The notes under the pieces were generated by a model that saw only the letters and a list, made by a program, of their open reading frames with translations, ran no database searches and was not told the DNA's origin. The translations under genes were made by a program, and so were the position numbers. Shown here piece by piece: positions 436 through 20,012 of a DNA stretch of 55,985 nucleotides. Every line of letters begins with the position of its first letter. The first letter of the stretch is position 1. Origin of the DNA: an uncultured Chitinophagaceae bacterium (lineage in GTDB: Bacteria > Bacteroidota > Bacteroidia > Chitinophagales > Chitinophagaceae); NCBI GenBank assembly GCA_903884185.1, contig CAISDV010000135.1:1-55985 (forward strand), in the 5' to 3' direction.

Positions 436-552
436 CGAACAAAATTTTTTTTATTAAAAATGTATTCGGATCCTATTTTTGATATGAATCACAAAAATAC
501 CTCCAATATACAACATCCATGTCTAGCTAGTTTTATAATTGGAATACTTATG

Positions 553-573: not shown

Positions 574-577
574 GTAT

Positions 578-866: not shown

Positions 867-2090
867 CTATGGTTTCAGGTTACATTTTTCAAGCATCTCA
901 ACTATTTTATTTTTTACTAAACCCGGATCAAAATGCCTGCATGCATATACCCGATTAATATTTCCGGCCATTTGTTCCAAGTTACCCTGCGAATTTGAAA
1001 AGGAAATTAACTCAGCAACTAATTTATCTGTATTATGTGCAACTATAATATTCCCTTCACATTCAGCCAGCATATCAGTTATGTGAGATGGTGCAGGGCC
1101 AATATATATAATTGGCTTTCCAATAAACATTGCTCCATATATTTTGCCTGGATGAGTGAATCCTACCTGACCCTCGCCCAAGATAACGACATGTACGTCG
1201 GCTGCTCCCAACGAGAGATGTATTGACTCTATTGGCTGGAAAGGTAACTGAATAATATTTTGAAGCTTATTTTTAAGTTTAAAATCACTAACCTGTTTTT
1301 TCTTCACCCCCTCCCCGATAAAGACAAATAAGAACTCAAGATGGTCTTTTAATCCCAAAGCAGCACCAAGGAGCGTATCTAAAGGGTGTACAAAAGAATG
1401 ATTACCTGAATACATGATAACGATCTTTCCAGTGAATTGATGTGCAATCCTGAATGGGTTTTCCTCATGTTCCCCCTCGTAGACCCTTTCCATGATAGGC
1501 CATAGAGGTATTACAGATATCTTACGTGGATGTATTCCCTTTGAAAGAAGATACTGCTTCATGTACTTATCTAAAACAATAATCGAATCTGCTTTCCTGA
1601 ATATCGAAAGGCCTGCAAGCAGCAATAACTTTGCCAAAATGTTTTTCTCTGAAAGCAGCCCCGATGCTATAGAAAGTTCGGGCTGAAGGTCCATTGCCCA
1701 ATAAACGAATTTTATCTTTTTGGCTCTTGCTATCTTTCCCGAAATAAACGATGTAAAAGGCGGGGATGTCATGCCTATTACGATATCATAACCTTTTTTT
1801 CGCATAAAAAGCAACTTCCAGAGAAGAAGAAGATCAAATGATATAATATCGGTAGCCCGACCCATTATGGTTGATTTGCCAAATGCGGTATTACGCAACC
1901 TGGAAACCCGGACACCATTGATGGTTTCTTTTCTCAGATACCTCTCATGCATATTCTCATAAGCATGCCCGCTTGTAATTACATGCACCTGGTGCCCTTT
2001 TCCGGTTAAAGTAGCGGACAGATCATACAAATGTTGCCCTAAAGCAACTGTATCAGGATAATAAAATTGTGTAATGATCAGGAAACGCAT
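867..2090 (-). CDS. Family-4 type glycosyltransferase (GT-B fold)
   Basis: This 407-residue protein begins MRFLIITQFYYPDTVALGQH, typical of WcaI/GT4-like glycosyltransferases with an N-terminal Rossmann domain (FYYPD...G..LYDLSATLTGKGHQVHVIT). The C-terminal half has IVIMYSGNHSFVHPLDTLL and FIGEGVKKKQV, the nucleotide-sugar binding domain, and ends near GKPIIYIGPAPS. It probably transfers a sugar to a lipid-linked or surface glycan. The ATG at 2090 was chosen over an upstream TTG at 2162 because family members start at MRFLI and the longer form would overlap the preceding gene. It is the last gene after ispF, exosortase and the small membrane protein, 64 nt downstream of the latter. The acceptor and donor cannot be told. 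Confidence 0.85.
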   Translation of the reverse strand: MRFLIITQFYYPDTVALGQHLYDLSATLTGKGHQVHVITSGHAYENMHERYLRKETINGVRVSRLRNTAFGKSTIMGRATDIISFDLLLLWKLLFMRKKGYDIVIGMTSPPFTSFISGKIARAKKIKFVYWAMDLQPELSIASGLLSEKNILAKLLLLAGLSIFRKADSIIVLDKYMKQYLLSKGIHPRKISVIPLWPIMERVYEGEHEENPFRIAHQFTGKIVIMYSGNHSFVHPLDTLLGAALGLKDHLEFLFVFIGEGVKKKQVSDFKLKNKLQNIIQLPFQPIESIHLSLGAADVHVVILGEGQVGFTHPGKIYGAMFIGKPIIYIGPAPSHITDMLAECEGNIIVAHNTDKLVAELISFSNSQGNLEQMAGNINRVYACRHFDPGLVKNKIVEMLEKCNLKP

Positions 2091-2154
2091 AATCCATGTA
2101 AGCCTTGTCAAAGCCCAAATTACAGGCAAATATAAACCCCCGGGGCATATTTTT

Positions 2155-2562
2155 TTACTCAATATACTTCTGCTCAGGCCTTTCTTTCATAGTCAATGAA
2201 AACACATATACCGCTATAAAGGGCCCCGGAGTAATAAAAAAATAGAATAAACCCGCAGCTCCTTTTTTTATTAGTTTGAAATGCACGCCAGGTATGCAAA
2301 GACTAATGACACCAAATAAGAGCAGCAGTGAAATAAGCACAAAATATATCAGCAGCCATATTTTTTTCACCCATCTTTTTTGATATCCTCCCAAACCCCA
2401 AAACCCTATAATCGTGATGATCGCCAAACAAAGAAAATGACAAGGGTAAGTATATATTTTCTGCATATTCCTACTATCAGTATTCTCATAGATATAACTG
2501 TATCCCAGCCAGGTAATTATATTAAGAATAACAAATGCGATCCATGGCTTAACTTTATTCAT
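2155..2562 (-). CDS. Small four-helix membrane protein, probable exosortase partner
   Basis: This 135-residue protein has about four hydrophobic segments (roughly residues 7-25, 43-58, 69-90 and 104-122) and a polar C-terminus. Its start overlaps the 3' end of the exosortase gene by 8 nt (ATGAATAA), so the two are probably translationally coupled. Bacteroidota exosortases are commonly followed by a short membrane protein of about this size (the XrtF- or XrtX-associated proteins), and this gene fits that slot. No catalytic motif is visible. Its role, perhaps a scaffold or substrate-presentation factor for the exosortase, is inferred from position alone. Confidence 0.7.
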   Translation of the reverse strand: MNKVKPWIAFVILNIITWLGYSYIYENTDSRNMQKIYTYPCHFLCLAIITIIGFWGLGGYQKRWVKKIWLLIYFVLISLLLLFGVISLCIPGVHFKLIKKGAAGLFYFFITPGPFIAVYVFSLTMKERPEQKYIE

Positions 2563-3139
2563 CTGAAGTATTTATACTGCCACGCGAATAAAAAATCCAT
2601 ACCCCAAAAATCAGTCCATAAATAACCACTTTAAAAACATAATGGTGTGCAAGACCTGTTAATGTATAATGATGGAAGTTCATCCATGCCAATCCCGCAC
2701 AACGCAGGATATTGCAAATTCCGATCATTGCTATACCTAAGATTGTATAAGCCGTCATTTTTCCAATAGCAGCAGGAATACAGAACAAAAAGCCTGCATA
2801 CAGCGCTATTAACTCAAGCCCGTTACACCCGTCAGCGATCACAATTATTTTTTGATGCCCCATCATCACATAATCATAGCAAAAAAATTGTTTGTCCGAA
2901 TCCAGCTCACAGGTTTCTCCCACCATGAAATTCATGTCCGGATAAATTTTTGAGAGTATTTGTTCCGTTCCGGCAGAAATAAGATGTGTTAATTGTTTAT
3001 CCGGGAACCTTGATGGATACAAAAAAAATCCATACAACAACTTCCATATAACAAAAATCAATAATGCCCTTTTCAAAAACCGTTTTACTTCCCTGGGAAT
3101 TTCCTTATACGTTTCCTTAAACTCTTTCACAATATTCAT
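2555..3139 (-). CDS. Exosortase/archaeosortase family protein
   Basis: This 194-residue integral membrane protein shows the exosortase catalytic signature: Cys105 in ADGCNGLE, Arg146 in CNILRCAG and His165/166 in LAHHYVFK, each near a membrane segment. Exosortases cleave and re-attach proteins that carry a short C-terminal sorting signal (motif, hydrophobic helix, basic tail). The ATG at 3139 was chosen because the upstream extension to 3304 is not protein-like and overlaps ispF. It is coupled by an 8-nt overlap to a small membrane protein and sits 136 nt downstream of ispF in the T9SS porU-porV block. No substrate with an obvious exosortase-type tail is encoded in this window. The XrtF or XrtX subtype is suspected but not established. 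Confidence 0.85.
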   Translation of the reverse strand: MNIVKEFKETYKEIPREVKRFLKRALLIFVIWKLLYGFFLYPSRFPDKQLTHLISAGTEQILSKIYPDMNFMVGETCELDSDKQFFCYDYVMMGHQKIIVIADGCNGLELIALYAGFLFCIPAAIGKMTAYTILGIAMIGICNILRCAGLAWMNFHHYTLTGLAHHYVFKVVIYGLIFGVWIFYSRGSINTSDE

Positions 3140-3275
3140 ACAGTAAAATTTACATGTTTTGAATATTGAGGAGTATGGGCAAAGAGAAAAAAAAATGATT
3201 CTATAATCATCATTTCTTAATACAAATACTGAAGGGAAATACTTTGAGGGGGTTAATTCAGAGAGATAAGCAAAT

Positions 3276-3749
3276 TTAAGACTTATCCAGCAAAACTGTT
3301 GCATATGCCACCAGGCCTTCTTCCCTTCCTACAAAACCCAATGTTTCTGTAGTAGTGGCTTTAATGGAAACATCTTTAAAGTTGATACCTAATATTCCTG
3401 CAATTGTTTCCTGCATTTGAGGAACATAGGATTTTATCTTTGGCAATTGAAGGCAAACAGTAGAATCAATATTGATCACTTTATAACCTTCGGCCCGGAT
3501 TAGTGCAAATGTTTTTGCCAGCAATATTTTACTATCAATATTTTTGTACTCAGGTGAGGTGTCGGGAAAATGTGAGCCGATATCGCCAAGACTCAAAGCA
3601 CCAAGAAGTGCGTCGCAGACCGCATGCAACAGAACATCCGCATCACTATGGCCTAAAGCTCCTTTATGGTGAGGGAGTTTTACACCCCCTATCCATAATT
3701 CCCTTCCTTCAACCAGTTGATGAAAATCAACTCCTGATCCTATTCGCAT
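3276..3749 (-). CDS. ispF: 2-C-methyl-D-erythritol 2,4-cyclodiphosphate synthase
   Basis: This 157-residue protein converts CDP-methylerythritol 2-phosphate to the cyclic diphosphate in the non-mevalonate isoprenoid pathway. The zinc ligands Asp8 and His10 (GVDFHQ) and His42 (LLHAVCD) are present. So are the family blocks GHSDADV, GDIGSHFPDT and TTTETLGFVGREEG, and the length is normal for IspF. The ATG at 3749 gives the canonical MRIGSGVDFH start, 7 nt after the porV stop, so ispF is probably co-transcribed with porU-porV. Confidence 0.97.
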   Translation of the reverse strand: MRIGSGVDFHQLVEGRELWIGGVKLPHHKGALGHSDADVLLHAVCDALLGALSLGDIGSHFPDTSPEYKNIDSKILLAKTFALIRAEGYKVINIDSTVCLQLPKIKSYVPQMQETIAGILGINFKDVSIKATTTETLGFVGREEGLVAYATVLLDKS

Positions 3750-3756: not shown

Positions 3757-4911
3757 TTAATTAGATGGGTCAAGATAGAACAGTAACCCAAAACGTAAAG
3801 TTTTTGACAAAGGATTCCTGGTAACCCCATTACCAGAAGGTACGAGGTAAGAAAAATTCAACCCTATATTACTGTATTTGAGGCCAATACCTACTGAAAA
3901 ATACTGGCGGTTGCCTTGCGTTTTATCCTCATAAAAATATCCCGTTCTCAAAAAGAAAAGATCACTATAAGAGTACTCAACACCCAACGAAGCCTGAAAA
4001 CTTTTCAAAAGATCAGTACTGCCGCCAAAAGATTTGAACCAGCTTGAAATAACGCTACTGTTCCTATAATCTGCAAGTGCAGCAGAATCAGTAGAAAAAT
4101 TATTGGTTGCTACAGGCGGTGCCGGTACCAATAGTTTATTGACATCGAGCCCAAAAGTCATTTTATTACTTTCATCGAAAATCTTTGTGTATGCCACACC
4201 CAAACCCATATTGGCAGGTATATAATCCTTGTTCTGTGCATCATTGGTATAACCGATCTTTGAACCAAGGTTTGACAAAGTAATTCCCCAGTTAAGCCCC
4301 TGCTTTGTTCCTGATTCAGTACCATCATGAAATAAGGTAATATCACCTGCTACGGCATTCCCGGCTTTATAACTTACTCCATTTACAGATCCGTTGGCAA
4401 GACTTGAGTTAATATACCTCAATGCAAGTCCTAATCCCAGGTTAGGCGATAGCTTCAATGAATACCCAAAATCTATGCAAAATTCTTTAGGCCGAAAGCT
4501 GTTTAAAGGATTCCCTGCAAAGTCTGTGAACTGTATACTTCCCAGGCTGAAATAGCGCATGGAAGCTGAAATTGCCTGGTCATCCCCTATTTTATGGTAT
4601 CCTGCCAGGCTGGCAAGAAATACGTCACCCACGCCAAGATCCTGTAACCACGGCGTGTAGGTCAATCCAATGGCATTGGTCTTTTTGGCAAATGGGGTTT
4701 TAGCGCGGTTCCAGAAAGCTGCATTGGCATCCGGAGACATGGCAATACCCACATCACCCATACCCCCGGAACGGGCATCGGGCGAGATCCTCAAAAAAGG
4801 AACTGCAGTAGTTACCACATTTACAGCGCCTGATTGTGCTGTTGCACCCGCTGCAAAGAAAAATATAGCTGTACACAGAGCAATGAAATATCCCGTGGCT
4901 TTTCTTCTCAT
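3757..4911 (-). CDS. porV: Type IX secretion outer-membrane protein PorV (LptO)
   Basis: This 384-residue protein has a signal peptide ending around ATAQSGAVN. It has the PorV hallmark VPFLRISPDARSGGMGDVGIA followed by repeated amphipathic beta strands (for example NLGLGLALRYINSSLA and LFFLRTGYFYEDKTQG), and ends in a strand with RFGLLFYLDPSN. PorV is a FadL-like outer-membrane barrel that takes cargo from the SprA translocon and delivers it to the sortase PorU. It lies 92 nt downstream of porU and 7 nt upstream of ispF. The porU-porV pairing matches the arrangement known in Flavobacterium, which supports the assignment. Confidence 0.95.
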   Translation of the reverse strand: MRRKATGYFIALCTAIFFFAAGATAQSGAVNVVTTAVPFLRISPDARSGGMGDVGIAMSPDANAAFWNRAKTPFAKKTNAIGLTYTPWLQDLGVGDVFLASLAGYHKIGDDQAISASMRYFSLGSIQFTDFAGNPLNSFRPKEFCIDFGYSLKLSPNLGLGLALRYINSSLANGSVNGVSYKAGNAVAGDITLFHDGTESGTKQGLNWGITLSNLGSKIGYTNDAQNKDYIPANMGLGVAYTKIFDESNKMTFGLDVNKLLVPAPPVATNNFSTDSAALADYRNSSVISSWFKSFGGSTDLLKSFQASLGVEYSYSDLFFLRTGYFYEDKTQGNRQYFSVGIGLKYSNIGLNFSYLVPSGNGVTRNPLSKTLRFGLLFYLDPSN

Positions 4912-5003
4912 GGAATAAAATTAAAATAAATAATTAGATGAACACACTTAAAAAAAGTAATTAAACTGCCTTTTTGGAGTAGAGATCAAATCATTCAATT
5001 TGT

Positions 5004-8000
5004 TTAGAAGAGAAGCAATTTTTGTGTAGCCTGTGCCATCCCATTTCTTGATGATACAATAATACGATAAATATAAATACCCCTTGATAGTTTTTCGCCA
5101 TAGATGCTCTTTCCATCCCAGGTGATCTCATTGCTCCGGTTTCCTGCATCATTGACCGCTTTCCTTAACCGATAAACCAACTGGCCGCTGCTGCTCAAAA
5201 TATCGAGAGAAATATCCATGTCAATCCCCGGCTGGTTATGCTCAAAAGAGAACGTTGTTTTTGTGGTCATTGGGTTGGGATAATTAAACAGGTTGCCGAT
5301 CTGTATCTTCTGCTTTTTCACTACCCTGAACCGGATAGTGGCTTCGCTTGAATTATCTGCCACATCCCAGGCTTTCACCTTAATGGTATGCAAACCTTCA
5401 GTCATTACCGGTAATTGGTAACGGACCAGCCCCCTCTGATAACTATCCAGTAATGCTTCATAATAACTGTTCAGGACGATCACATTTTTGTCGTTCCCAT
5501 CAATGATACAAGTTATATCGTGTCCGATGCCTGCACCTGATGTGTTGATCCCGGAAGAATCAAACAGGTCTGCGAGCAGAACTGGTGTTTCGTTTGTCAA
5601 TCCACCATCAATAAAGCTCTCGTCATTCATGAAAAGTTTAATAACAGGGCCAGACTTGTCAGTTAAAACAGCATTCCCCGCACCTCCCACAGAAAAGGCT
5701 GTAGAAACGCCATTCGCATCATGTACCCCATCATCTGCATACAAACTCAACCTTCCTTTTCCCGGCTGATAATGAATGTCTTTGGGAACGATAAAAGTGA
5801 AATTGAATAATCCATTTTTCACTGTTGCTTTTCCTTTGTATAAAATATTTGTTTGCTCTGTGAAAATAGTGACCGGACTTGCGGGGTCATTCCCTAAAGT
5901 ACTTACCTGTTGCGGCTGATCAAAAACTGTTGGGTAAAGTGTACCATTAAAGCTATTGAGAAAATTCCCGCTGACATCAATGACCCTTCCGGCAAAAACA
6001 TATGTGTTTAATGCAGTAAGTGTATCCTTTCCTGCCACTGCATGGTTATTGATCGAGGTGAGCTGAAGACGCAAAGCGGGAAAAGCCAAACGCATGGCAG
6101 GATCGCCCAATAATGCAAATTTTCTATTATTGACTACGTCTGTATATGTCTGGTAAGTATAATTTTTTGCCTGCTTCACTGCTTCTCCCAAGGTGAGATA
6201 ATTGCCATTTGCTCCCGGCTGCAAAGCGATCTTTAAATAATTGTCGTTCATGATGCGGTTACTGAAAGCATACACATCCCTGGTGGTTGTCATGAGTGCA
6301 ATAGCTCCTGTAGAATCTCCATATAAAAGGCTGCCGCCAATAGAATTTTTTGTTGGATCATCATACGGTGCAAAATCGCATGTGGCTGTTATAAACAAAG
6401 GAAGTTTATCGGGATTATTAAATTGATTTAATTCAGTTTGCCCAAGAACCGCTTCATCCGCCAGCCGCTGGTATCCGCCATGCCCGTTATAATTAAAAAA
6501 TAATACCCCATTGGATATTCCATTAACAATAGCTGCATTTACCGCCGGGTACCTGCCACCGCCACTACCACTCACGAGTGGATAAGCATCCAGGTATATT
6601 TTTGACTGATTGTACAGGGAGTTTGTTGTACCCGCATCGCCTGATACTGCTTCTGCATCATTCAAATGAATATCATTGTCCTTATCATCTGCCACAAATA
6701 TTGTTTGATTGCGCCAGGAACCAAGCCCGGATGCAGAATTATACCTGATGATCTTATCAACGATGGTTGTTGCTTCATCAAGGCTTCTTGCCGGAAGCCT
6801 TCCAATCCCGATAGCTAACAGGCCTGGCGGCGATATTGTGTTCACATCATCGGAATCTTTTATCAGCCCAAAAAAATCATCCGAAGTATATGTGCTGAGT
6901 GGATCTAAAGAATTGATGCTTTCATAACAAGGCACCAGGTTGCTATTATTATTGATCCTGTTTTTATAGTCGAAAGAAGATGCACCAAAAAGCAATAAAT
7001 ATTTGGGGCGCTTTGTAGTATCTGTGCCCGCCTTATCATAATACATTTTTACAAAATCTCGAATAGCAGTGGGATCGGGCACGCCACTTCCAAATTCATT
7101 GAATATCTGGTCGGTTGTTGCCACTATTGTTGTAAGGCCATCATGCTGTGTATGAAATGTGGCAAGGCGATTGGCTTGTGCCAGCAAAGATGAATGAGTG
7201 ATGATGATACCATCCACAACAGATGAGTTATGCAGGTTTTGATTGCTGACCTTTCCCAATGAAACAGGAGAAAGAAAATTTGCATTATTGAAAACCGCAT
7301 ACTCCCTCAATCTTGAAGCATCATTTACAAAACCTGTTTGGGAGGAGGCAAACTGAGTGGCCATTTTCTGCGGTTGTAACGGATCGGTTATTTCCCAAAC
7401 TTCTGTTGCGGATGTGGTGGTGCCTACTGTAAATTGAGCAACTGCGGTGTTGGCAACGGAGGACCAATCGCGGAAGAAAACCTGGTCTTTGCCATTCATA
7501 GCAAGGGCTCGCCTGCCCTGTAACTCAAACCAGTTAAGCCATCCCTGTGCACCGGATACAGATGAATTAAAATTAAATGCAACTGTAATTGCCGGTTGCG
7601 TGGCCAGGGAATTATTTTGTTGTGATATTTCATTTGCAACAGGGTCTAAGAAATAGCCTGTGATGGCAGGTATACTTATATTTTGAATTTGCTGCCCGTT
7701 TACATTCACAGTAAAATTTCCAGGAGCTCCAATGCTTGCAGCAGCAAGGCTTGATGAGATCGTAAGTGGTTGTGTAGTTATCAAACCGCTGAAATCCACA
7801 TTAAAAGAATGGCTTAAAGAATTTCCACTAATGTTACTGAATGTTTCGCCATACCATTGCTTGCCGCTATTCAAAAAGTTAGTGAGATCATTTTCATAAA
7901 AGTATCTTTCGTTATAAGCACTGACATTTTGATTAGGCGTGAGTGTTATATTTTTTATTGATATTCTTTTCCCTGTTCCACCGATCGTGATAAAATAAAA

Positions 8001-8429
8001 TACAGTATCAGTGTACAGGTTTTTTTGATGGATAAAGCGTTGGTTTAAACTGTCCTTCAACCAGCGGTTTGGCCCCGGTGCATAAAACAATAAATAGTCG
8101 CTGCCATTAAAAATCCCATCCCCTCCATCAAACATTTCGACAGGATTTTCAAAGAGATCATCCTGCCTTGGCTTTACATTGTTTTCATCCAACATAGCGC
8201 CGCCGTTCCCAAATAAACGAATAGAAGAAGAAGACATGCCGGATGTATTGATGCCAAGAGAATTCAGGAATGGCAAATCAATTTTATATACTCCTTCCCG
8301 GCTAATCCCAATTTTGAACCAGTTACCGGTTGACAGCACAGAGTTGGTAGCATAGTTTCGCTGCGCTTCTGCATTACCAGCAAGAGCTATGAAAAAGACG
8401 ATCATCAGGATTCTATTCCTTGTACGCAA
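5004..8429 (-). CDS. porU: Type IX secretion sortase PorU (C25 gingipain-family peptidase)
   Basis: This 1141-residue protein removes the C-terminal sorting domain of T9SS cargo and attaches the cargo to anionic lipopolysaccharide on the cell surface. The C25 catalytic dyad is visible: His650 in FFNYNGHGGYQRLAD and Cys684 in FITATCDFAPYDDP. The N-terminal part (about 30-330) is the PorU-specific beta domain. An Ig-like region follows the peptidase, and the C-terminus (from about IGNLFNYPNPMTTKTTFSF) is a FlgD/CTD-like domain. The likely start is TTG at 8429, which supplies the basic n-region RTRNR of the signal peptide; the first ATG (8405) would lose it. A TAnnTTTG box lies 20 nt upstream. 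It is divergent from gldJ. Confidence 0.95.
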   Translation of the reverse strand: MRTRNRILMIVFFIALAGNAEAQRNYATNSVLSTGNWFKIGISREGVYKIDLPFLNSLGINTSGMSSSSIRLFGNGGAMLDENNVKPRQDDLFENPVEMFDGGDGIFNGSDYLLFYAPGPNRWLKDSLNQRFIHQKNLYTDTVFYFITIGGTGKRISIKNITLTPNQNVSAYNERYFYENDLTNFLNSGKQWYGETFSNISGNSLSHSFNVDFSGLITTQPLTISSSLAAASIGAPGNFTVNVNGQQIQNISIPAITGYFLDPVANEISQQNNSLATQPAITVAFNFNSSVSGAQGWLNWFELQGRRALAMNGKDQVFFRDWSSVANTAVAQFTVGTTTSATEVWEITDPLQPQKMATQFASSQTGFVNDASRLREYAVFNNANFLSPVSLGKVSNQNLHNSSVVDGIIITHSSLLAQANRLATFHTQHDGLTTIVATTDQIFNEFGSGVPDPTAIRDFVKMYYDKAGTDTTKRPKYLLLFGASSFDYKNRINNNSNLVPCYESINSLDPLSTYTSDDFFGLIKDSDDVNTISPPGLLAIGIGRLPARSLDEATTIVDKIIRYNSASGLGSWRNQTIFVADDKDNDIHLNDAEAVSGDAGTTNSLYNQSKIYLDAYPLVSGSGGGRYPAVNAAIVNGISNGVLFFNYNGHGGYQRLADEAVLGQTELNQFNNPDKLPLFITATCDFAPYDDPTKNSIGGSLLYGDSTGAIALMTTTRDVYAFSNRIMNDNYLKIALQPGANGNYLTLGEAVKQAKNYTYQTYTDVVNNRKFALLGDPAMRLAFPALRLQLTSINNHAVAGKDTLTALNTYVFAGRVIDVSGNFLNSFNGTLYPTVFDQPQQVSTLGNDPASPVTIFTEQTNILYKGKATVKNGLFNFTFIVPKDIHYQPGKGRLSLYADDGVHDANGVSTAFSVGGAGNAVLTDKSGPVIKLFMNDESFIDGGLTNETPVLLADLFDSSGINTSGAGIGHDITCIIDGNDKNVIVLNSYYEALLDSYQRGLVRYQLPVMTEGLHTIKVKAWDVADNSSEATIRFRVVKKQKIQIGNLFNYPNPMTTKTTFSFEHNQPGIDMDISLDILSSSGQLVYRLRKAVNDAGNRSNEITWDGKSIYGEKLSRGIYIYRIIVSSRNGMAQATQKLLLF

Positions 8430-11679: not shown

Positions 11680-11750
11680 AATAATTCACTTTCTTTAATA
11701 AATTCACCTCATATGGGAAATCCCGTCAATCAGAAGTAACTTTGCCTGTC

Positions 11751-12221
11751 ATGAACCAGCAACCGTTACCACAGCAAAAACCACTTTATCTATGGAGTGC
11801 TTTTACCAATAAATGCCCCCGATGCCGGCAAGGCGAAATATTTCAATCAAAAAATGCGTATCGCTTCAAGGATAACCTGGTGATGTTGGAAAAATGCCCT
11901 GTTTGCGGGCAACCTACGGAAATTGAAGTGGGATTCTATTACGGTACTGGGTTCGTTAGTTATGGTTTAACGGTTGCTTTTTCAGTAGCCACTTTTATAG
12001 CCTGGTGGGTGTTTCTTGGTATGTCATTTTCTATCAATGATAACAGGATTTTCTATTGGTTGATCATTAATGCAGTTTTAATGCTGGCATTACAGCCCCC
12101 TATCATGCGTTTATCCCGGAGCTTATGGCTGAGTTGGTTTGTAAAATATGATCCGGATTGGAGGATACATCCTGTTGAAGAGCCGGAGAGGCTTGTTGAT
12201 GAACAGAAGAATAATTGGTAA
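11751..12221 (+). CDS. DUF983 family membrane protein
   Basis: This 156-residue protein has two CxxC pairs in its N-terminal half (CPRCRQGEIF and KCPVCGQP), probably a zinc ribbon. Two membrane segments follow (roughly residues 67-90 and 98-115). This is the arrangement of the DUF983 family, whose function is unknown. The ATG at 11751 was preferred to the TTG at 11742. A TAACTTTG box ends 6 nt before this ATG, suggesting a leaderless or nearly leaderless transcript. The gene stands alone between murF and a scarred intergenic region. Confidence 0.85.
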   Translation: MNQQPLPQQKPLYLWSAFTNKCPRCRQGEIFQSKNAYRFKDNLVMLEKCPVCGQPTEIEVGFYYGTGFVSYGLTVAFSVATFIAWWVFLGMSFSINDNRIFYWLIINAVLMLALQPPIMRLSRSLWLSWFVKYDPDWRIHPVEEPERLVDEQKNNW

Positions 12222-12333
12222 CTTCATTGCTATTTCAGACGGAAGCATCCCTTCTTATTGACTTATCGTATTAAATAGTCAATTCTGGGAACCGTGACAG
12301 GTTTATATTATTTTTATTCTATAAAGAAATATT

Positions 12334-12486
12334 ATGCTTTTATATTTTGACCCAGGAAGTGGTTCGCTCTTACTTCAAATCATCATAGCTGCCTTTGTTT
12401 CTATCCTTAGCTTCTCAAAAAAGATTAAAATTTCTTTACGTGCCTTTTTTAAAACCCTCTTTAAGCAAAAGATCAAAAAAGAGTGA
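12334..12486 (+). CDS. Small DPGSGS-motif membrane protein
   Basis: This 50-codon gene runs from ATG 12334 to TGA 12486. It begins MLLYFDPGSGSLLLQIII, continues as one hydrophobic helix (about residues 12-28), and ends in a very basic tail (KKIKISLRAFFKTLFKQKIKKE). Short proteins with a DPG(S/T)GS N-terminus, one membrane helix and a basic tail recur in many bacteria, often beside surface-glycan or methyltransferase genes. Their function is unknown. An RDPDGFVF methyltransferase-like remnant begins 1 nt after its stop. The motif and composition make it a real gene despite its length. Confidence 0.75.
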   Translation: MLLYFDPGSGSLLLQIIIAAFVSILSFSKKIKISLRAFFKTLFKQKIKKE

Positions 12487-12487
12487 T

Positions 12488-12595
12488 ATGGAAAGAATAT
12501 CCTATCGCGACCCCGATGGCTTTGTGTTTTCCGCAATTAACCAGCTACACTGTGTACAGGATATAGGCAACCTGATCAATCATGCTTTTAAATAG
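12488..12595 (+). pseudogene. Truncated remnant of a class I methyltransferase-like gene
   Basis: This 35-codon frame begins MERISYRDPDGFVFSAINQ and then loses resemblance to anything before stopping at 12595. An N-terminal (Y/F)RDPxGFVF followed by INQ is, to my recollection, typical of SAM-dependent methyltransferases encoded directly after DPGSGS-type small proteins. Here only the N-terminal tip remains, with an apparent deletion of the rest. It starts 1 nt after the stop codon of the small protein, as expected for a former operon partner. The family link is from memory and needs a search. Confidence 0.5.
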
Positions 12596-12652
12596 CCCTT
12601 TTCTCACCGCTTTACTATTTCAAATAGACTTAACCTGTAACACGTTTTTCGC

Positions 12653-12660
12653 TATTTTTG
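12653..12660 (+). promoter_or_regulatory. Candidate -7 box for tRNA-Ser
   Basis: TATTTTTG matches TAnnTTTG and ends 13 nt before the mature 5' end of the tRNA, an appropriate distance for a primary transcript. No clear -33 TTG is visible. Confidence 0.45.
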
Positions 12661-12673
12661 CCCCCTTAAAATT

Positions 12674-12760
12674 GGAGAGTTGTCCGAGTGGTTGAAGGAG
12701 CACGCCTGGAAAGTGTGTATACTCGAAAGGGTATCGAGGGTTCGAATCCCTCACTCTCCG
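12674..12760 (+). tRNA. tRNA-Ser (anticodon GGA)
   Basis: This 87-nt type II tRNA has acceptor stem GGAGAGT/ACTCTCC with discriminator G. The anticodon stem is CACGC/GTGTG with loop CTGGAAA (GGA at 12708-12710). It has a long variable arm (TACTCGAAAGGGTA) and the T-arm GAGGGTTCGAATCCCTC. CCA is not encoded. It reads serine UCC/UCU codons. A perfect hairpin terminator begins 2 nt downstream. Confidence 0.98.
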
Positions 12761-12761
12761 C

Positions 12762-12807
12762 AAAATAAAAATGCCATCCTGTATTCATCGGATGGCATTT
12801 TTATTTT
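12762..12807. terminator. Perfect 18-bp bidirectional terminator
   Basis: The arm at 12762-12779 is the exact reverse complement of 12790-12807 (core AAAATGCCATCC / GGATGGCATTTT), with a 10-nt loop and A/T runs outside. It can end the tRNA-Ser transcript on the plus strand and the EPS operon on the minus strand. Confidence 0.9.
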
Positions 12808-12831
12808 GAAGCATTGTCCGTTGTTGCAAAG

Positions 12832-13194
12832 TTATTTGTAATACAGGTTGACATTAAATCTTCCAACCTGTATATTATTCAGAGCAAGTTTTTCTGAAAG
12901 CATTCTTTCTTTTGATTCATCGATCTCTTTGGTAGATATTAAAACAACTGTGGCTTTTGCTTTTTCACAGGCGCTTACGAGTTGCTCTTCGCCGCCATAA
13001 ATTTTAAACCCGTATAAAAACATATTTTGTTTTGTTTCATCATCATCTATCCATCCAACAGGGCTTAGGCCATATTTCCGGTTTTGTAAAAGTTCTTTAA
13101 CCAATAAATAGCCGCTATCACCTGCACCGTAGATGATCACTCTTCTTTTAAGTTCACCACTCTTATTAATAAATTCTTTCAGCGACCTGTAAAT
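12832..13194 (-). pseudogene. C-terminal fragment of a polyprenyl-phosphate sugar transferase (NAD-binding domain)
   Basis: The frame from [19 protein letters not shown] (13194 downward) through VIIYGAGDSGYLLVKELL and PVGWIDDDETKQN to NVNLYYK is a Rossmann-type CoA_binding_3 domain. It resembles the C-terminal part of WecA/MraY-like UndP-sugar-1-phosphate transferases or the N-terminal part of CapD-like dehydratases. No start codon or membrane domain precedes it; the frame abuts a truncated epimerase read in another frame. A GTG at 13140 could initiate about 102 codons, but that product would lack any catalytic domain. It is best read as the 3' remnant left by a deletion, the last piece of the EPS locus before the terminator. 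Confidence 0.7.
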
Positions 13195-13363
13195 CTTTAA
13201 GGTTATGCCGAAAGCCTGTTGAAAAATTATCTAGTACGCGAACTTTTTTTGCCCCGTATTTGAGCAGGTATTCAACCAGGTTGGATCCAATGAACCCCGC
13301 GCCTCCTGTGACAAGGAAGGTATATTGAGAGAGGTCAACTGTATGGTATTGTGTTTCGTACAT
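13166..13363 (-). pseudogene. 5' fragment of an NAD-dependent sugar epimerase (WbpP/TviC-like)
   Basis: The frame starts [20 protein letters not shown] and continues [37 protein letters not shown]. This is the NAD-binding beginning of an extended short-chain-dehydrogenase epimerase, normally about 320-340 residues. It then runs out of homology and stops after about 65 codons. It starts 1 nt after the stop of the UDP-sugar dehydrogenase (an ATG at 13378 overlapping that gene is also possible). A dehydrogenase plus this epimerase is the TviB-TviC/WbpA-WbpP pair that makes N-acetylgalactosaminuronic-type sugars. The substrate-binding half is gone, so the product cannot work. Confidence 0.8.
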
Positions 13364-13364
13364 A

Positions 13365-14666
13365 TTATAGCCTGGCATCCACCAGTGGAGATCGCAACAA
13401 TCCTTTTACATCAAATAATACTCCTGGCTTATTTAGCATTTTTCCATAATCGAGATCGAGGAATTCTTTATGCCCAACTGCAAGTATGACAGCATCGAAT
13501 TTTTTTAATAATGGGAATTCATTACATTTTTTTAAGCCATATTCTTTCTGAACCTCAATTTCATCAGCCCAGGGATCATAAACTGTAATTTTAGCTTTAT
13601 GCGATTTTAACTCATTGATAATATCTACGACTTTTGTATTACGCACATCAGTACAATTTTCTTTAAAAGTAATACCTAATACTAATATTTCGGCATTATG
13701 AACCGGGATGTCTTTATCAGACATAAGCTTTATAACCTGTCCTGCTACATGACTGCCCATACTGTCATTAAGTCTCCTGCCTGCTAAAATAATTTCTGGG
13801 TGATACCCAACAGACTGCGCCTTTTTTGCAAGGTAATATGGGTCAATGCCTATACAATGCCCCCCTACCAATCCTGGTTTAAAAGAAAGGAAATTCCATT
13901 TTGTGCTCGCCGCTTCCAGCACGTCACGCGTATCTATGTTCAAAAGGTTAAATATTTTTGACAATTCATTCACGAAGGCAATATTAATATCCCGTTGTAC
14001 ATTCTCTATAACTTTTGCAGCTTCGGCTATTTTGATAGAAGGAGCCAAATGTGTACCTGCAGTAATAATTGAACCATAGAGCTCGTCTATACGCTTTGCA
14101 ATTTCCGGTGTAGATCCTGATGTAATTTTTTTGATTTTAGCAAGTGTGTGTGCTTTATCTCCGGGATTAATCCTCTCAGGAGAATAACCGCAAAAAAAAT
14201 CCCGGTTGTACTGTAGCCCAGATTTTTTTTCAAGAACAGGAACACATTCTTCTTCTGTACACCCTGGGTAAACAGTAGATTCGTAAATAATAATATTACC
14301 CTTGCTGATTGACAACCCTACAGTTTCTGTCGCTTTTAATAATGGGGATAGATCAGGGGCATTAAAAGCATCAACAGGAGTAGGAACAGTTACAATATAA
14401 ATATTGTAGCCTTTTAAAAAATTTGGGTCAGAAGTAAAAGAAAGCCCTTTTTCACTATTTTCGACAGATACATTGGTGCTAACCAATTGCAGGGATGCAA
14501 GATCTGCTTCCAGAGTGTGGTCGAGGCCTAATGACAATTCTTTTATCCTTTGCTGATTGATATCGAAGCCAATTACCTTATATTTTTTTGCAAATTCAAT
14601 GGCAAGGGGCAAGCCTACATACCCAAGGCCAATGATTGCAATCGTACTCTTCTCTACCTGTCCCAT
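13365..14666 (-). CDS. UDP-N-acetylhexosamine 6-dehydrogenase (TviB/WbpA family)
   Basis: This 433-residue protein has the N-terminal NAD-binding [20 protein letters not shown] and the central [18 protein letters not shown] and [12 protein letters not shown]. Its catalytic Cys lies in [19 protein letters not shown]. The C-terminal UDP-binding domain has [17 protein letters not shown]. It oxidises a UDP-HexNAc to the uronic acid for EPS or O-antigen. The ESTVYPG and [12 protein letters not shown] blocks fit the TviB/WbpA group better than plain UDP-glucose dehydrogenase. Its start directly follows the stop of the Wzz-like gene, and the truncated epimerase follows it. The gene itself looks intact. 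Confidence 0.9.
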
Positions 14667-15698
14667 CTACTTTGACATTTTTTTATTGCTCAATCTATAC
14701 CAGCGGCTCATTACCAATAATACCAACATAAAAAAAACACTGATACCGGCATCCCTGATAATACTTTTCCTATTATCGGGTACAATAATTGCCAAAGGGG
14801 TTTGTGGTTCATCAATTACTTCGAAAAGAGGAGTTTCTTTCTGAACACTTATTTTAGCTATTTCTAAATTCCTCATTACCTCCGAATATGCAACGCTTAA
14901 TGCAGCCATTCTTGCCTGGTTAAGTTGTATCCCGGAGCGCTGAATAACTATTGAAGGGTTCATATTATAGGTTCTGTCTGAAACATATGCAGTTGCCTCT
15001 ATCGTAGTTCCAAGCAGGTTTTTTAAACTATCTGCTTCTTTTGTTAAAAGTTCCAGGTTTTGCCTGGCAACCTTGAGTTTAGTATCAATAAAATAACGAG
15101 AAGTCACTTCTACAATATTTTCCACCATATAATATGCCACCCCTTCAGAGGCTGAAGTAGCATCAACTATGTAAAAACTTAATTTTTTGTCTTTCTTAGA
15201 AACATTAATAGAGGCAGTTGTTGAATTCACAATTTTGCGAAATAATTTATTTTGTACTGGCGTGAATTTTGCAGTATCATCCGGGAATTTTGGAAACCCT
15301 TTTTTGAACATATTCTGCTCTTCCCCAATAAGGTTCAATAGATTTATGTTTTTCCCTTTAACCTCATGCAAAAGCATCTTTGTGATAAGTTTTCTTGATT
15401 TAAAGAGTTCCAAAATGTTATCGCCGGCAAAAATGCTTTCATTTCCCATGCCACCCACTTCCAGCCCAAATTGAGAAGCCAGGCCAGAAATACCAGCGCT
15501 TTTCGATTCAGTGGCCAATACAAAAGTGAGGCTTGCTGTATAAACTGGTTTTGTATCTTTTATATATATATATCCAATTACTGTACCTGATATTATTGCT
15601 AAAAGAAGGTATATCCAATTGCGCAGAAAATATATCACCCAATTTCTTGCGTTGCTAACCCATTGATACAATGAAAACTCTTCCAGCAATTCTAACAT
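14667..15698 (-). CDS. Wzz/Wzc-type polysaccharide chain-length (co-polymerase) protein
   Basis: This 343-residue inner-membrane protein has one membrane segment near the N-terminus (about 28-48, NWIYLLLAIISGTVIGYIYI) and one near the C-terminus (about 318-333, ISVFFMLVLLVMSRW). They bracket a large periplasmic region, the Wzz topology. A PxxP-like segment (DEPQTPLAIIVPDN) precedes the second helix, as in polysaccharide co-polymerases. No BY-kinase domain is attached. It starts 4 nt after the SLBB export gene and abuts the dehydrogenase, so it is in the EPS operon. It probably regulates chain length and links synthesis to the outer-membrane exporter. Confidence 0.88.
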   Translation of the reverse strand: MLELLEEFSLYQWVSNARNWVIYFLRNWIYLLLAIISGTVIGYIYIKDTKPVYTASLTFVLATESKSAGISGLASQFGLEVGGMGNESIFAGDNILELFKSRKLITKMLLHEVKGKNINLLNLIGEEQNMFKKGFPKFPDDTAKFTPVQNKLFRKIVNSTTASINVSKKDKKLSFYIVDATSASEGVAYYMVENIVEVTSRYFIDTKLKVARQNLELLTKEADSLKNLLGTTIEATAYVSDRTYNMNPSIVIQRSGIQLNQARMAALSVAYSEVMRNLEIAKISVQKETPLFEVIDEPQTPLAIIVPDNRKSIIRDAGISVFFMLVLLVMSRWYRLSNKKMSK

Positions 15699-15702
15699 AT
15701 CA

Positions 15703-17316
15703 TTACTTTAATGAATTTAATATAGCTATGATAACACCCGCCATTGAAAGCAGGATACTTGCAGATCCAATAATTTCCGTACCGGTTACTCTTGCCTTTT
15801 CCCTCCTTTTCGGAACAACTATCTCAGAGCCAGCGAATACCCCAGGATAAGACCGGAATAAACCAAATAAACCAGGCTTTGTTTTCTCGATTTGGCCATT
15901 GGCTTGAATTACATACACCCTCGACCTGCGGGCATTATCAGTCACACCACCCGCCCGGTTCAGGTATTCTTTCAATTTGAAATTTTCCATAAAGCCAACC
16001 TTGGTAGGCAAGTATACTTCGCCGCTTATTTTAACAAGCATATCATTTTTAGGCACATCCAGTATATCTCCTTCTTCAAGTACCAAATCTTCTTTTGATC
16101 CGGGATTTTGAATCACTTCCTTCATGTTAATACTGATCCTCGTAACAGGATTGATTATATCTTCAATAGCGGAGCTGCTTGTATCGCTTATACTCCTCTG
16201 ATAGTTCTTAGCTACATCAATTTTTTGAATCCCCAAAACACTACTTGTGTTGTTTTTCCTTATCAATGATATCCCTTCCATGTAGGCTGCCGGCGTTGTA
16301 CCGCCCGAGCGTTTTAATAGATCGCTTACCCGATCTGTCTTTGACTGAATGGTGTATGGGCCGGGATATAAAACTTCACCTACAACTGATATAGTTTTTT
16401 GTATAAAAAATCCAGGCTTTTTCCGAACAGTTATTACATCAAATGGCTTTAATTTAAAATAATCTGCTTTAACAGACAGGTCGCGGTCTCCGCTAATGTC
16501 GAATACCTCGGCTATAACATTATCAGAAACAGGACTGAAGTTGTCTTTATTAACTCGTCTTGCTATTTCAATATGATAAGCCGATCCAGCTTCAGTAAAG
16601 CCCCCGGCCTGAAATAGAATATCACTGAACTTTAGGCTGTCATTATATTGAAAACTACCTGGTTTACGTACTTCTCCTCCAATACTAACAGATTGCTGAT
16701 CTTTAAAATCAAAAATGGAAGCAATGTTGATAATGTCCTCATTTTTTAGCAGGATGTCTTTCTCACTCCCATTCAGAATGCCTTTCAGGTTGAAGGCAAT
16801 TGTTTCTTTAGTTTGATCGTCATTTGTTCTTTGTATTAACCCCCGATCCAGGAAAACATCACCTTTTACTCCATCTGCTTTTCGAATAAGGCTGCCAACC
16901 GTTAGCCCAGACGTTAATTCATACTGCCCGGGCCTGTAAACAGCTCCTGAAATACTGACATTATTTTCAAATTTTTCAAGAATAGACCCAACAGTAAACT
17001 CATCACCATTCTGTGGATTATATGCATTAAATTCCTGTTTTGGAATATCTTTTATTCTACGCTGCTTGTCGGTAATTTGCTGAACTTTAATACTTGCTGT
17101 ATAAGCCTTTGCAGTAAATCCCGCTGCAAAACTTATCAATTTCTCCATGTTCTCACCTTCCAGCATTTCATAAATACCTGGCCGTTTTACTTCTCCGCTG
17201 ATAGTTACCCTCTTTTGGTAGACAGGGATATTGATCAAATCATTTTCATTAAGAAGCACATTGCCTGATTGATCCCCATAAAGAAGAAAATTATAGAGAT
17301 CGATCTTTTGGTACAA
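15703..17316 (-). CDS. SLBB polysaccharide export protein, C-terminal part of a frameshifted gene
   Basis: This frame of 537 codons from a TTG (MYQKIDLYNFLLYG) contains a series of SLBB repeats (VTISGEVKRPGIYEMLEGE, VSISGAVYRPGQYELTSG, VSIGGEVRKPGSFQYNDS, ISVVGEVLYPGPYTIQSK, VKISGEVYLPTKVGFMEN) and ends in a hydrophobic tail. It lacks a signal peptide and poly_export domain. Those lie in the frame at 17337-18143. The frame is open upstream through RQVELIRNNKLYQKI, homologous sequence that joins the N-terminal part if one G is added to the G run at 17369-17372. It is therefore one gene of about 813 codons, 15703-18143, split by a 1-nt deletion or a sequencing error. Whether the C-terminal half is ever translated alone is doubtful. 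Confidence 0.85.
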   Translation of the reverse strand: MYQKIDLYNFLLYGDQSGNVLLNENDLINIPVYQKRVTISGEVKRPGIYEMLEGENMEKLISFAAGFTAKAYTASIKVQQITDKQRRIKDIPKQEFNAYNPQNGDEFTVGSILEKFENNVSISGAVYRPGQYELTSGLTVGSLIRKADGVKGDVFLDRGLIQRTNDDQTKETIAFNLKGILNGSEKDILLKNEDIINIASIFDFKDQQSVSIGGEVRKPGSFQYNDSLKFSDILFQAGGFTEAGSAYHIEIARRVNKDNFSPVSDNVIAEVFDISGDRDLSVKADYFKLKPFDVITVRKKPGFFIQKTISVVGEVLYPGPYTIQSKTDRVSDLLKRSGGTTPAAYMEGISLIRKNNTSSVLGIQKIDVAKNYQRSISDTSSSAIEDIINPVTRISINMKEVIQNPGSKEDLVLEEGDILDVPKNDMLVKISGEVYLPTKVGFMENFKLKEYLNRAGGVTDNARRSRVYVIQANGQIEKTKPGLFGLFRSYPGVFAGSEIVVPKRREKARVTGTEIIGSASILLSMAGVIIAILNSLK

Positions 17317-17336
17317 TTTATTATTGCGGATCAGTT

Positions 17337-18143
17337 CTACCTGCCTGTAACTATTAATGTTGTCAGGGCCCCACTGTTATACAGGGCATTAAAGAGAGTG
17401 GTAAGCGATGATACAGTATAATTACCCGATTTCACAGCTCCAATAATAGTTATATGAATACTACGGATCTTTCCAAGGGATATGTTTAATTTACTTAACC
17501 CTGAAGCAAGTGTTGGATAAGTGCCTGAAGCCATCTTTTTTTTGATCCGTTGTGTAGCATCCTCGATCGTAAGCCCACTAACAGAAACAATACCTAATTG
17601 GGGAATCGTAATCGTACCTTCAGGTTGCAACATTAATCTGAAATTGGCTTCCTGGTAACCACTTACTGTTATTATCAATTCATCATCCGTCCCTAACACA
17701 TAGCCTAAAGGAGTAGCCATTTTTAAGTTAGGCTCAAAAGAGAGAGAAGGGTTATTAAGCAATGAACCAAACACATTTGATTGTTTAACACTGGGCCCTT
17801 CTTTAGGTAATTCTTTATGCTCAGGAGCGATCGCCTGCCTGTTGGCACCTGATGCTTTTGGGCCAGTAGTATCCACTACAGCTTGTGTACGGCTCAACCT
17901 GTCGCGCAATTTTGCAATTTCAGTTGCCGGCATCCCTTTTGAAGCAGCCATTTGTTCTGCTTGTTGTTGCGTCATACCTGATGCCTTCAACTGCTGCTGT
18001 AAGGTTGCAATATCAGCATCGGAGACTTTATCAATATTGATCTTGCTCAAATCTGCCTGCTTAAGAAGGTCCTGTGCACAAAGGCTCACTATCCCGAAGA
18101 AGAGAAAAGCCAGGAGCAATAACCAACGTTTTGTAATGTTCAT
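17337..18143 (-). CDS. SLBB polysaccharide export protein, N-terminal part of a frameshifted gene
   Basis: The ATG at 18143 gives a signal peptide (MNITKRWLLLLAFLFFGIVSLCAQ); the upstream ATG at 18185 would bury it. The helical segment LSKINIDKVSDADIATLQQQ is shared with the gene at 1-435. A poly_export domain follows (PLGYVLGTDDELIITVSGYQ, EGTITIPQLGIVSVSGLTI). The first SLBB repeat starts at IHITIIGAVKSGNYTVSSL. After NALYNSGA the frame goes astray and stops (LTTLIVTGR*). One base over, the expected GPDNINSYRQVELIRNN continues, locating a 1-nt loss in the G run at 17369-17372. A full product would form the outer-membrane EPS channel. Truncated, it lacks most SLBB repeats. Confidence 0.9.
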   Translation of the reverse strand: MNITKRWLLLLAFLFFGIVSLCAQDLLKQADLSKINIDKVSDADIATLQQQLKASGMTQQQAEQMAASKGMPATEIAKLRDRLSRTQAVVDTTGPKASGANRQAIAPEHKELPKEGPSVKQSNVFGSLLNNPSLSFEPNLKMATPLGYVLGTDDELIITVSGYQEANFRLMLQPEGTITIPQLGIVSVSGLTIEDATQRIKKKMASGTYPTLASGLSKLNISLGKIRSIHITIIGAVKSGNYTVSSLTTLFNALYNSGALTTLIVTGR

Positions 18144-18598
18144 AGAGTTATATATAACAAAATAAAAATGTACAACAAAAATCAACTAAGAAAGGTGATT
18201 TTCCTAAATATTTATACCGGTCATAATTCAGGATTTTATTATGGAACCACATCAAAGTGTCATGGCCTTATAATGCTTCGCCGTCCTCAGTCACATTTTT
18301 CATTCTGTAACTTAAGCAAGCGGCTTTTATTTAACTGTTCAATTAACTAAGCCTGCGACTCGAATGATACTAAGCTATCTTATTGACCAAAAGCAAATTA
18401 CACTCATATTACATTTTTAATATGCTCCAATTTGCCCCCCTGCAAAATAAGCTCTTACTGCCATATTTATTCATCCAATTTTATTAAAATCGGATTAGTA
18501 AGTTCAATTTTTTCTAACAAAAGGCTCCTGCCCTTACCCAGGCAGCTTTTGGTTATTTCCTGAATCCCCAAAAGGGAGTACGATATCCAGGATGCAGG
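18144..18598. other. Gene-free leader region of the EPS operon
   Basis: There is no convincing ORF between the EPS export gene (start 18143) and the tatD stop (18599). The stretch is AT-rich and includes the second copy of the shared leader element (18275-18295). The rest shows no clear TAnnTTTG promoter and no strong hairpin. It resembles the leader at 436-866 in length and composition. Confidence 0.6.
18275..18295 (-). promoter_or_regulatory. Conserved EPS leader element, copy 2 (ops-like candidate)
   Basis: On the minus strand this reads TGTGACTGAGGACGGCGAAGC, differing from copy 1 (553-573) at two positions. It lies 132 nt upstream of the export-gene ATG at 18143. The flanking sequence is not conserved, so the match is not explained by duplication of the whole leader. 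See the finding that links it to the UpxY-like protein at 25165-25674. Confidence 0.6.
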
Positions 18599-19366
18599 TC
18601 AATTCTCAAATATCTTTTTGGCATTGACAGTTGTAGCTGAAGCTATCTCGTCGACCGGCAAACCCTTTATTTCAGCAATCTTATTAAGGATATATTCCAA
18701 ATAACTGCTTTCATTTCTTTTCCCCCGGAATGGGACAGGAGTTAAATAAGGAGCATCCGTTTCTAAAACAATATTTTCCAGGCTTATTTCTTTGACCACT
18801 TCAGCCAACCCCGAATTTTTATATGTAACTACGCCACCAATACCCAGGTAAAATCCCATTTCAATGATACGCGCTGCCTGGCTTGCATTGCCGCTGAAAC
18901 AATGAAAGATCCCTCTCAATCCTTTTTCTGCAAATGGCTTTACAGTTTCGATCGTTTCTTCCATCGCGCTTCGTGTGTGGATCACTATCGGCAATTTCTT
19001 ATTCAATGCCCATCGCATTTGCAATTTGAATGCATCGTACTGTTGATCGGTAAAAGTTTTATCCCAATAAAAATCCAGCCCTATTTCACCAATTGCAACA
19101 AATTTTCTTTTGTTCAGCCAATGTTCTACTATATCCAGCTCTTCACGGTAATTTTCCTTTACAGAACAAGGATGCAGCCCGGCCATGGGTATACAAACAC
19201 CAGGATATTTTTCTTCCAGCAAAAACATTTCTTTGATGACTCCACTATCAATAGCAGGCAAATAAAATTTCTCAACCCCGATTTGTTTTGCGCGCGAGAT
19301 CACCCCTTCTATATCCTGCCTGAATTCTTCGAGGTACAAATGGCAATGTGTATCTATTAAAATCAT
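18599..19366 (-). CDS. TatD family metal-dependent hydrolase
   Basis: This 255-residue TIM-barrel hydrolase has metal ligands in DTHCHLY (residues 4-9), the conserved Glu in IGEIGLDFYWD, His in IVIHTRSAMEE, His in GIFHCFSGNASQA and Asp in VLETDAPYLTP. TatD proteins are 3'-5' DNA exonucleases or deoxyribonucleases linked to DNA repair and quality control. The ATG at 19366 gives the canonical MILIDTHCHL start; a longer form to 19450 overlaps the deacetylase. It follows the deacetylase by 16 nt and may share its transcript. Confidence 0.95.
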   Translation of the reverse strand: MILIDTHCHLYLEEFRQDIEGVISRAKQIGVEKFYLPAIDSGVIKEMFLLEEKYPGVCIPMAGLHPCSVKENYREELDIVEHWLNKRKFVAIGEIGLDFYWDKTFTDQQYDAFKLQMRWALNKKLPIVIHTRSAMEETIETVKPFAEKGLRGIFHCFSGNASQAARIIEMGFYLGIGGVVTYKNSGLAEVVKEISLENIVLETDAPYLTPVPFRGKRNESSYLEYILNKIAEIKGLPVDEIASATTVNAKKIFEN

Positions 19367-19382
19367 ACAAAAAATAAAATTA

Positions 19383-20012
19383 TTACTGAGAGATCGATTC
19401 AAACCGGTATCCCTTCCCATTAAAATATTCCAATACCCTGGGCAATGCATAACTCATCCTCTCAAATGCTTTTTCGCTATCATGAAAAACAATGATCGAT
19501 CCCTGCCTTGCATGGTCTGTAACATTTTTTACGCATTTATCCGGATGCAGGCTCGTATCAAAATCACCACTCAAAACATCCCACATAATAATTCTTGAAG
19601 GAACGCCTTCTGTACGCATGATCTGTCTTGCCTGTGACCTTGTGATACGGCCATAAGGCGGCCTGAAAAGATCAGATTTAATCAATTCAGATGCCTTTTC
19701 TATATCCTCCAAATATGTTTTCTTATTTGTTTTCCAACCATTCAAATGATGATTGGTATGATTGCCGGTTTGATGCCCTTCATCAATGATTCGCTGATAG
19801 AGTTCTTTATTTACTGCTACATTTTTCCCAATGCAAAAAAAAGTGGCTTTTGCATTGTACTTTTTAAGTTCATCCAGGACAAATGAAGTAACTGTTTCGT
19901 GGGGACCGTCATCAAATGTGAGGTATAATACTTTATCCTCTCCTTTTATCGTCCAGGTAAATGAAGGATATAATTTCTTTAGCCACCAGGGAGTCTTTAC
20001 CAAATACAGCAT
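19383..20012 (-). CDS. Polysaccharide deacetylase (NodB domain)
   Basis: This 209-residue protein has the NodB motifs: LTFDDGP (catalytic base and metal Asp), HQTGNHTNHH (metal His pair), RPPYGRIT, and SIIVFHDSEKA. It would remove acetyl groups from N-acetylglucosamine-containing polymers such as peptidoglycan or an EPS. There is no clear signal peptide, only a short amphipathic N-terminus (MLYLVKTPWWLKKLYPSFTW), so export is uncertain. The ATG at 20012 was preferred to the TTG at 20021. Its 5' end is divergent from gltX with about 68 nt between. Confidence 0.92.
   Translation of the reverse strand: MLYLVKTPWWLKKLYPSFTWTIKGEDKVLYLTFDDGPHETVTSFVLDELKKYNAKATFFCIGKNVAVNKELYQRIIDEGHQTGNHTNHHLNGWKTNKKTYLEDIEKASELIKSDLFRPPYGRITRSQARQIMRTEGVPSRIIMWDVLSGDFDTSLHPDKCVKNVTDHARQGSIIVFHDSEKAFERMSYALPRVLEYFNGKGYRFESISQ

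Follow-up and report, generated by a model that had tools for sequence, protein, structure and literature searches.

The window, a stretch of 55,985 nucleotides from an uncultured Chitinophagaceae bacterium, carries at 12832–18185 what is, at a probability of about 0.85, the remnant of a Wzx/Wzy-type exopolysaccharide (EPS) operon, probably acquired on the 3′ side of a tRNA-Ser(GGA) gene and inactivated by an internal deletion of approximately 13 kb together with a frameshift in the exporter gene. The scar lies at 13190–13197, where, read on the minus strand, the first 58 or so codons of an epimerase gene are followed, in a different frame, by the last 120 or so codons of a GT4 transferase gene. 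From the sequence comparisons described below, a large internal deletion is the best reading of this join. Inactivation of capsule and EPS loci is well known, and the deletion scar is an ordinary event.

Two gene stubs and their join

The epimerase stub (13190–13363, minus strand) was recognized as that of a TviC/WbpP-like nucleotide-sugar epimerase from Pfam, NCBIfam, and operon homologues. Its minus-strand ORF (13166–13378) aligns only with positions 2–40 of the 240 of the Pfam Epimerase model (E 2.2e-8), and among NCBIfam models it is matched best by TviC, over residues 7–65 (E 2.3e-10), scoring 40 bits where the cut-off is 760, as a stub would be expected to. The segment matching Pfam positions 2–40 is the nucleotide-binding N terminus, with the GxxGxxG motif of TviC/WbpP epimerases; the catalytic and substrate-binding remainder of approximately 270 residues is absent, the frame leaving the family at about 13190. 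The alignment of relatives begins at the ATG at 13363, which is the probable start codon and would leave about 58 of some 330 codons. No intact counterpart of the stub was seen in the bacterium's own genome, where none of the 12 places compared, among 15 other epimerase-family places, exceeded 31% identity to the intact epimerase.

On the other side of the join lies the stub of a GT4 (WecA-type)-CoA_binding_3 transferase (12832–13194, minus strand), comprising its last ∼120 codons and identified by the identity and domains of its homologues. The minus-strand frame at 12832–13215, which ends in NVNLYYK before a stop at 12832, has no Pfam match, PF00953 included, and its NCBIfam matches fall on the Rossmann-like part of sugar-phosphotransferase models, all below the cut-offs. 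When a collection of 84,980 species was scanned by pattern, 71 loci related to this stub were returned, nine of which (in Mucilaginibacter, Pedobacter, and another member of the Sphingobacteriaceae) are 53–59% identical to it, the other 62 reaching at most 47%. The higher identity extends mostly over 118 residues, equivalent to residues ∼475–598 of homologues of approximately 600 amino acids. Full-length genes of 593–621 amino acids are present in seven of the nine loci, and the three that were scanned carry both PF00953 and PF13727. By homologue identity, the part kept in the stub is the C-terminal Rossmann-like domain of GT4. Within the host family, 147 genomes gave 21 matches besides the window's own, at 21–40% identity; 14 of these sit in open frames of 628–680 amino acids, and the one examined by Pfam has a domain of this kind near its N terminus. 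A CapD/FlaA1-type origin of the stub was considered and rejected, the close relatives being GT4 proteins with the domain at the C terminus. The name “WecA/CapD-like” given in the initial annotation is accordingly apt in its WecA half, in view of the GT4 relatives and their C-terminal domain.

The junction (13190–13197, minus strand) was placed by alignments of both sides and is good to a few bases. Epimerase similarity is lost at about 13190, and GT4 similarity runs from about 13194. BLAST ends are more scattered, reaching 13199 or 13187 on the epimerase side and beginning on the GT4 side at 13191, or at 13206–13203 in two of the nine loci. Taken together, the alignment limits and the BLAST ends on both sides put the junction at approximately 13190–13197, inside the interval 13185–13200 that had been proposed; the accompanying claim, that the start of an epimerase is fused out of frame to the C-terminal part of a transferase, also holds, since both stubs are found where it placed them. 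The two similarities overlap by perhaps 5–8 nt, or by ∼20 nt at the outermost BLAST ends. A chance join is excluded by the match scores and by the order and orientation of the stubs, which are as in intact operons. Comparison of a 42-mer at the junction with viral contigs gave no match and is uninformative.

Intact operons and the missing stretch

The exporter was searched for in ten genomes behind the GT4 loci, and six Sphingobacteriaceae genomes with GT4 were compared. In G405, G407, and G410, exporter and GT4 share a contig and a strand, with GT4 downstream; in G406, G408, and G409, the exporter and GT4 ends are on different contigs. The ends are collinear with the window in all three genomes that have both on one contig, one of which lacks the dehydrogenase. 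The loci of G407 (L198) and G405 (L199) have an exporter (809 and 833 amino acids, respectively), Wzz-like gene, dehydrogenase, and epimerase in order. The same genes, with an exporter of 774 amino acids, are present in G409 (L201); the G410 locus (L200), which is without a dehydrogenase, has an exporter of 834 amino acids, a Wzz-like gene, and an epimerase, and the G408 locus (L202) breaks off inside the Wzz-like gene.

Between the points equivalent to the junction, there are 13436 bases in G407, 13421 in G405, and 14120 in G410, and these 13.4–14.1 kb in intact operons bear out the proposal that a large internal deletion removed the synthesis genes. The gap genes recognized by Pfam in both G407 and G405 encode a flippase-family protein, several glycosyltransferases, an asparagine-synthase-like protein, and a second epimerase; G407 has in addition a methyltransferase and a hexapeptide transferase, and one gap ORF of G405 has no Pfam match. 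The comparison with relatives that the initial annotation had suggested for finding the missing genes has thus supplied flippase, glycosyltransferase, and modifying genes in the equivalent gap, while no polymerase was identified by Pfam between the same flanks. In the window, no flippase, polymerase, or glycosyltransferase is found in 12832–18185, nor any other of these gap genes. A search of the bacterium's own genome for the missing four fifths of GT4 did not find it, the single PF00953 match being MraY by position because it lies between two Mur-ligase-like ORFs.

In the relatives, the second epimerase gene directly precedes GT4, and a small deletion of ∼2 kb between these neighbouring genes was therefore considered. 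It was rejected: the stub is only 42–50% identical to that epimerase, in short matches of 35–40 residues in three relatives, as compared to 71–77% over 55–57 residues to the same-position epimerase of four operon loci, the one behind the dehydrogenase or Wzz-like gene, and the large gap is preferred for this reason. The parent operon and the size of the deletion are modelled on another family, as no genome of the same genus was found.

Deletion within one operon has to be set against other origins of the join. Were it an assembly artefact, the contig would skip sequence that the cells do contain, through collapse or a mis-join between strains; the genome is indeed a draft of 188 contigs, and synthesis loci vary between strains. 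However, the overlap of the two similarities is short for a mis-join on assembler k-mers, 12832–13400 has no second copy in the genome, and the skipped GT4 part with PF00953 is on no other contig of a genome rated 100% complete, so that an artefact is very unlikely. Another kind of rearrangement, such as recombination of two operons, could also have juxtaposed the stubs, but we consider this quite unlikely. EPS loci do recombine often, and another glycosyltransferase adjoins IspF at the left window end, but the order and orientation of the remaining genes match single operons in each of the three genomes with both ends on one contig. That the join is a functional fused gene has next to no probability, even though both stubs are without stops in their own frames: a functional fusion protein was rejected because the two stubs are in different frames, the epimerase frame meets a stop codon 7 codons past the join, and approximately four fifths of each protein is gone, a loss that in GT4 includes the PF00953 domain.

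The split exporter and the two whole genes

The outer-membrane exporter of the window (Poly_export plus SLBB) does not occupy one reading frame but is divided between two minus-strand ORFs in different frames. The N-terminal part of this Wza-like protein (17337–18185) has a signal-peptide-like start and, by Pfam, the Poly_export domain; the C-terminal part (15703–17316), assigned by Pfam and homologue alignment, has the SLBB domains. The frameshift is placed at 17317–17367 (minus strand), as the two ORFs differ in frame and are consecutive in homologues: in five relatives, they align up to residue 260–283 and from residue 278–304, respectively, of one protein of 809–834 amino acids. The ORF at 17337–18185 is the only Poly_export match in its own genome. 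Exporter matches at E up to 1e-120 occur in 81 of 394 host-family genomes, this one included. Outside the window, 88 host-family exporter places are listed, and in 85 the frame stays open for at least 802 amino acids (two with stops inside the match), which makes the split gene unusual; the remaining three are shorter, at 580, 649, and 664 amino acids. The exporter genes with stops inside the match (two TAA and one TAG) are those at G240:C505:1732-3312 and G384:C18:7498-9093, and because of them exporter decay may be recurrent in the host family.

Two genes of the remnant look whole. The nucleotide-sugar dehydrogenase (13365–14666, minus strand; 433 amino acids), assigned from Pfam, NCBIfam, and operon homologues, is TviB-like: TviB is the best of the NCBIfam models listed, at 537.9 bits and thus below its cut-off of 592, and the cut-off of the general family model TIGR03026 is passed. 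It is 67–68% identical to its operon homologues over the full length. The apparently full-length Wzz-like chain-length protein (14667–15698, minus strand; 343 amino acids) was assigned by homology to the gene at the same position in four loci, to which it is 43–46% identical; its Pfam Wzz match (E 5.7e-4) is below the cut-off, and it has no NCBIfam match. With the exporter split by a frameshift and only these two genes whole, the view that the deletion left the export module does not stand. Elsewhere in the genome, PF03721 matches a 433-amino-acid dehydrogenase on contig C186, which is 25.6% identical to that of the window, and weakly a place on C169.

The exporter frameshift could be a sequencing error, in which case the remnant might serve to export a polymer whose enzymes are encoded elsewhere. 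In favour of this reading, which is unlikely, the break amounts to a single small shift of frame, neither the dehydrogenase nor the Wzz-like gene is interrupted anywhere along its length, and glycosyltransferase-like genes are present outside the remnant, for example at 867–2162. Against it, a split is unusual given the many unbroken exporter frames listed in the host family, and the operon's own synthesis genes are gone regardless. It is similarly doubtful, and rather more so, that the cell retains the intact dehydrogenase and Wzz-like genes for another surface-polymer pathway, the deletion having rewired the locus and not simply killed it. A candidate partner for the retained genes is, for example, the glycosyltransferase group that adjoins IspF at the window's left end.

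Insertion site, origin, and history

The remnant lies on the 3′ side of tRNA-Ser(GGA) (12674–12761, plus strand; ARAGORN), beyond a terminator-like inverted repeat with flanking A/T runs (12763–12808; 12761–12808 matches its own reverse complement at 88%). Across the insertion site is a conserved neighbour, a TatD-like DNase gene (18599–19450, minus strand; Pfam), which adjoins tRNA-Ser in some relatives. With the small gene after the Mur ligase (11742–12221), tRNA-Ser(GGA), and TatD as markers of the site, 13 loci or locus pairs and 20 stretches were compared; 12 have all three markers, and the other 21 are without at least one in the stretch covered. Five of the 12 genomes (G148, G063, G083, G212, and G259) have no insert, that is, no ORF of at least 80 amino acids in the gap. 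The other seven (the window, G010, G151, G066, G161, G242, and G076) have an insert of at least one ORF, in every case on the 3′ side of the tRNA, for either tRNA direction. None of the 35 gap ORFs of the six other insert genomes resembles window proteins of at least 100 amino acids at E 1e-4, so that among the 12 an EPS module occupies the site in the window alone. The variable site spans 12221–18599 in the window, and inserts are seen in L051, L097, L098, L101-L102, L105-L106, and L243; L091 and L225 represent the same tRNA-Ser(GGA) interval, covered in part only.

The tRNA 3′ end is not repeated in 12762–19500, where the best 25-nt match has 11 mismatches, and a direct check found no exact match of the tRNA longer than 9 nt. 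The longest direct repeat listed in 12600–19500 is 33 nt at 73%, and the tRNA is in none of the 20 repeat families shown (of 30). Repeats as the mechanism of deletion or integration were rejected, none fitting among the families listed and the tRNA not being repeated. No integrase is present among the Pfam-scanned ORFs around the site. Relatives also carry EPS genes at the IspF place: G010 and G242 have exporter, Wzz-like, and dehydrogenase genes behind IspF rather than at the tRNA-Ser site. In the window, a glycosyltransferase gene and two genes without a Pfam match adjoin IspF (1–3304), up to the contig end at position 1, and beside IspF (3757–8429) are type IX secretion system genes, encoding PorV and a C25 (PorU-like) peptidase, as in relatives such as G010.

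The module has a GC content of 38.1%, against 39.5–42.7% in all 321 stretches of equal length from 18600 to the end of the window; low GC is not unique to it, window positions 1–3275 having 35.4%. Most of its genes are nearer to Sphingobacteriaceae than to the host family: the dehydrogenase at 67–68% versus 50–64% for the host-family genes seen, the epimerase stub at 71–77% versus 42–66%, the Wzz-like protein at 43–48% versus 26–40%, and the GT4 stub at 53–59% versus at most 40%. The exporter shows the reverse, its best host-family relative (G226) being 53% identical and Sphingobacteriaceae 44–50%, and this speaks against transfer from a single Sphingobacteriaceae donor. The flanking Mur-ligase gene, which serves as a control for acquisition, is nearer to the host family, at 60–70% at the listed best host-family places versus 47–48% in two Sphingobacteriaceae genomes, with 49–50% in two Chitinophagaceae-labelled genomes; this control draws on two Sphingobacteriaceae genomes because the best match in G410 covers only part of the protein, at 32%. 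The dehydrogenase tree comprises 18 rows, and in it the window joins three Sphingobacteriaceae rows with support of 92/91, below the tool's starred level. Holding the window dehydrogenase in a clade with nine host-family rows was rejected (p-AU 0.0115, the deep row L012 left out); the host-family rows come mainly from DNA matches in one 29-genome sample and are not a full survey. On this comparative evidence, acquisition of the operon is likely, and the variable site 3′ of tRNA-Ser, the low GC, and the affinity of most genes to Sphingobacteriaceae together indicate that it was probably acquired and then decayed.

The deletion would have run from epimerase codon ∼58 to GT4 codon ∼475, removing ∼13 kb if the lost part resembled that of the relatives. 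One event may have made it, several also being possible, and short homology or end-joining may have sealed it. The cell would then have stopped making this polymer; no lipid-linked intermediate should have built up, because the deletion took the start enzyme, GT4, together with the later steps. Neither stub has so far acquired a stop in its own frame, which suggests a loss that is not ancient. By analogy with Klebsiella, it is plausible that synthesis was lost first and that exporter decay, by then harmless, followed. The genome of 2.95 Mb thereby seems to have lost its apparently only Wza-type polysaccharide operon, a loss tied to a tRNA-Ser site at which the inserts of relatives differ. For annotation, the ORFs of 102 and 70 amino acids are pseudogene stubs, and the two exporter ORFs are one broken gene; the general view of how such loci evolve is unchanged.

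Genomic islands are known at tRNA 3′ ends, and the site shares with them a variable content 3′ of one tRNA gene in relatives, unlike them being without an integrase in the scanned neighbours and without a repeated tRNA end. The closest likeness is to the exporter-Wzz-TviB/TviC-flippase-glycosyltransferases-GT4 operons of Mucilaginibacter and Pedobacter (L110/L199, L114/L198, and L118/L200), which have the gene order and orientation of the window on both sides of the scar and are 43–77% identical in protein to its remaining genes; in contrast to the window, they have an unbroken exporter and 13–14 kb more between epimerase and GT4. The pattern of loss is reminiscent of capsule loci in Klebsiella pneumoniae, for which a within-species survey (PMC8259999) counts, among 9% of loci, 447 pseudogenes and 55 missing genes, with the first step (wbaP/wcaJ) and glycosyltransferases hit most often in single-gene cases, and describes loss of late steps while early ones work as potentially harmful. 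Those inactivated loci resemble the window in having lost the first-step transferase and glycosyltransferases while retaining part of the locus; the window differs from them in combining a single large gap with a frameshift in the exporter, and in being one draft genome, from a different phylum.
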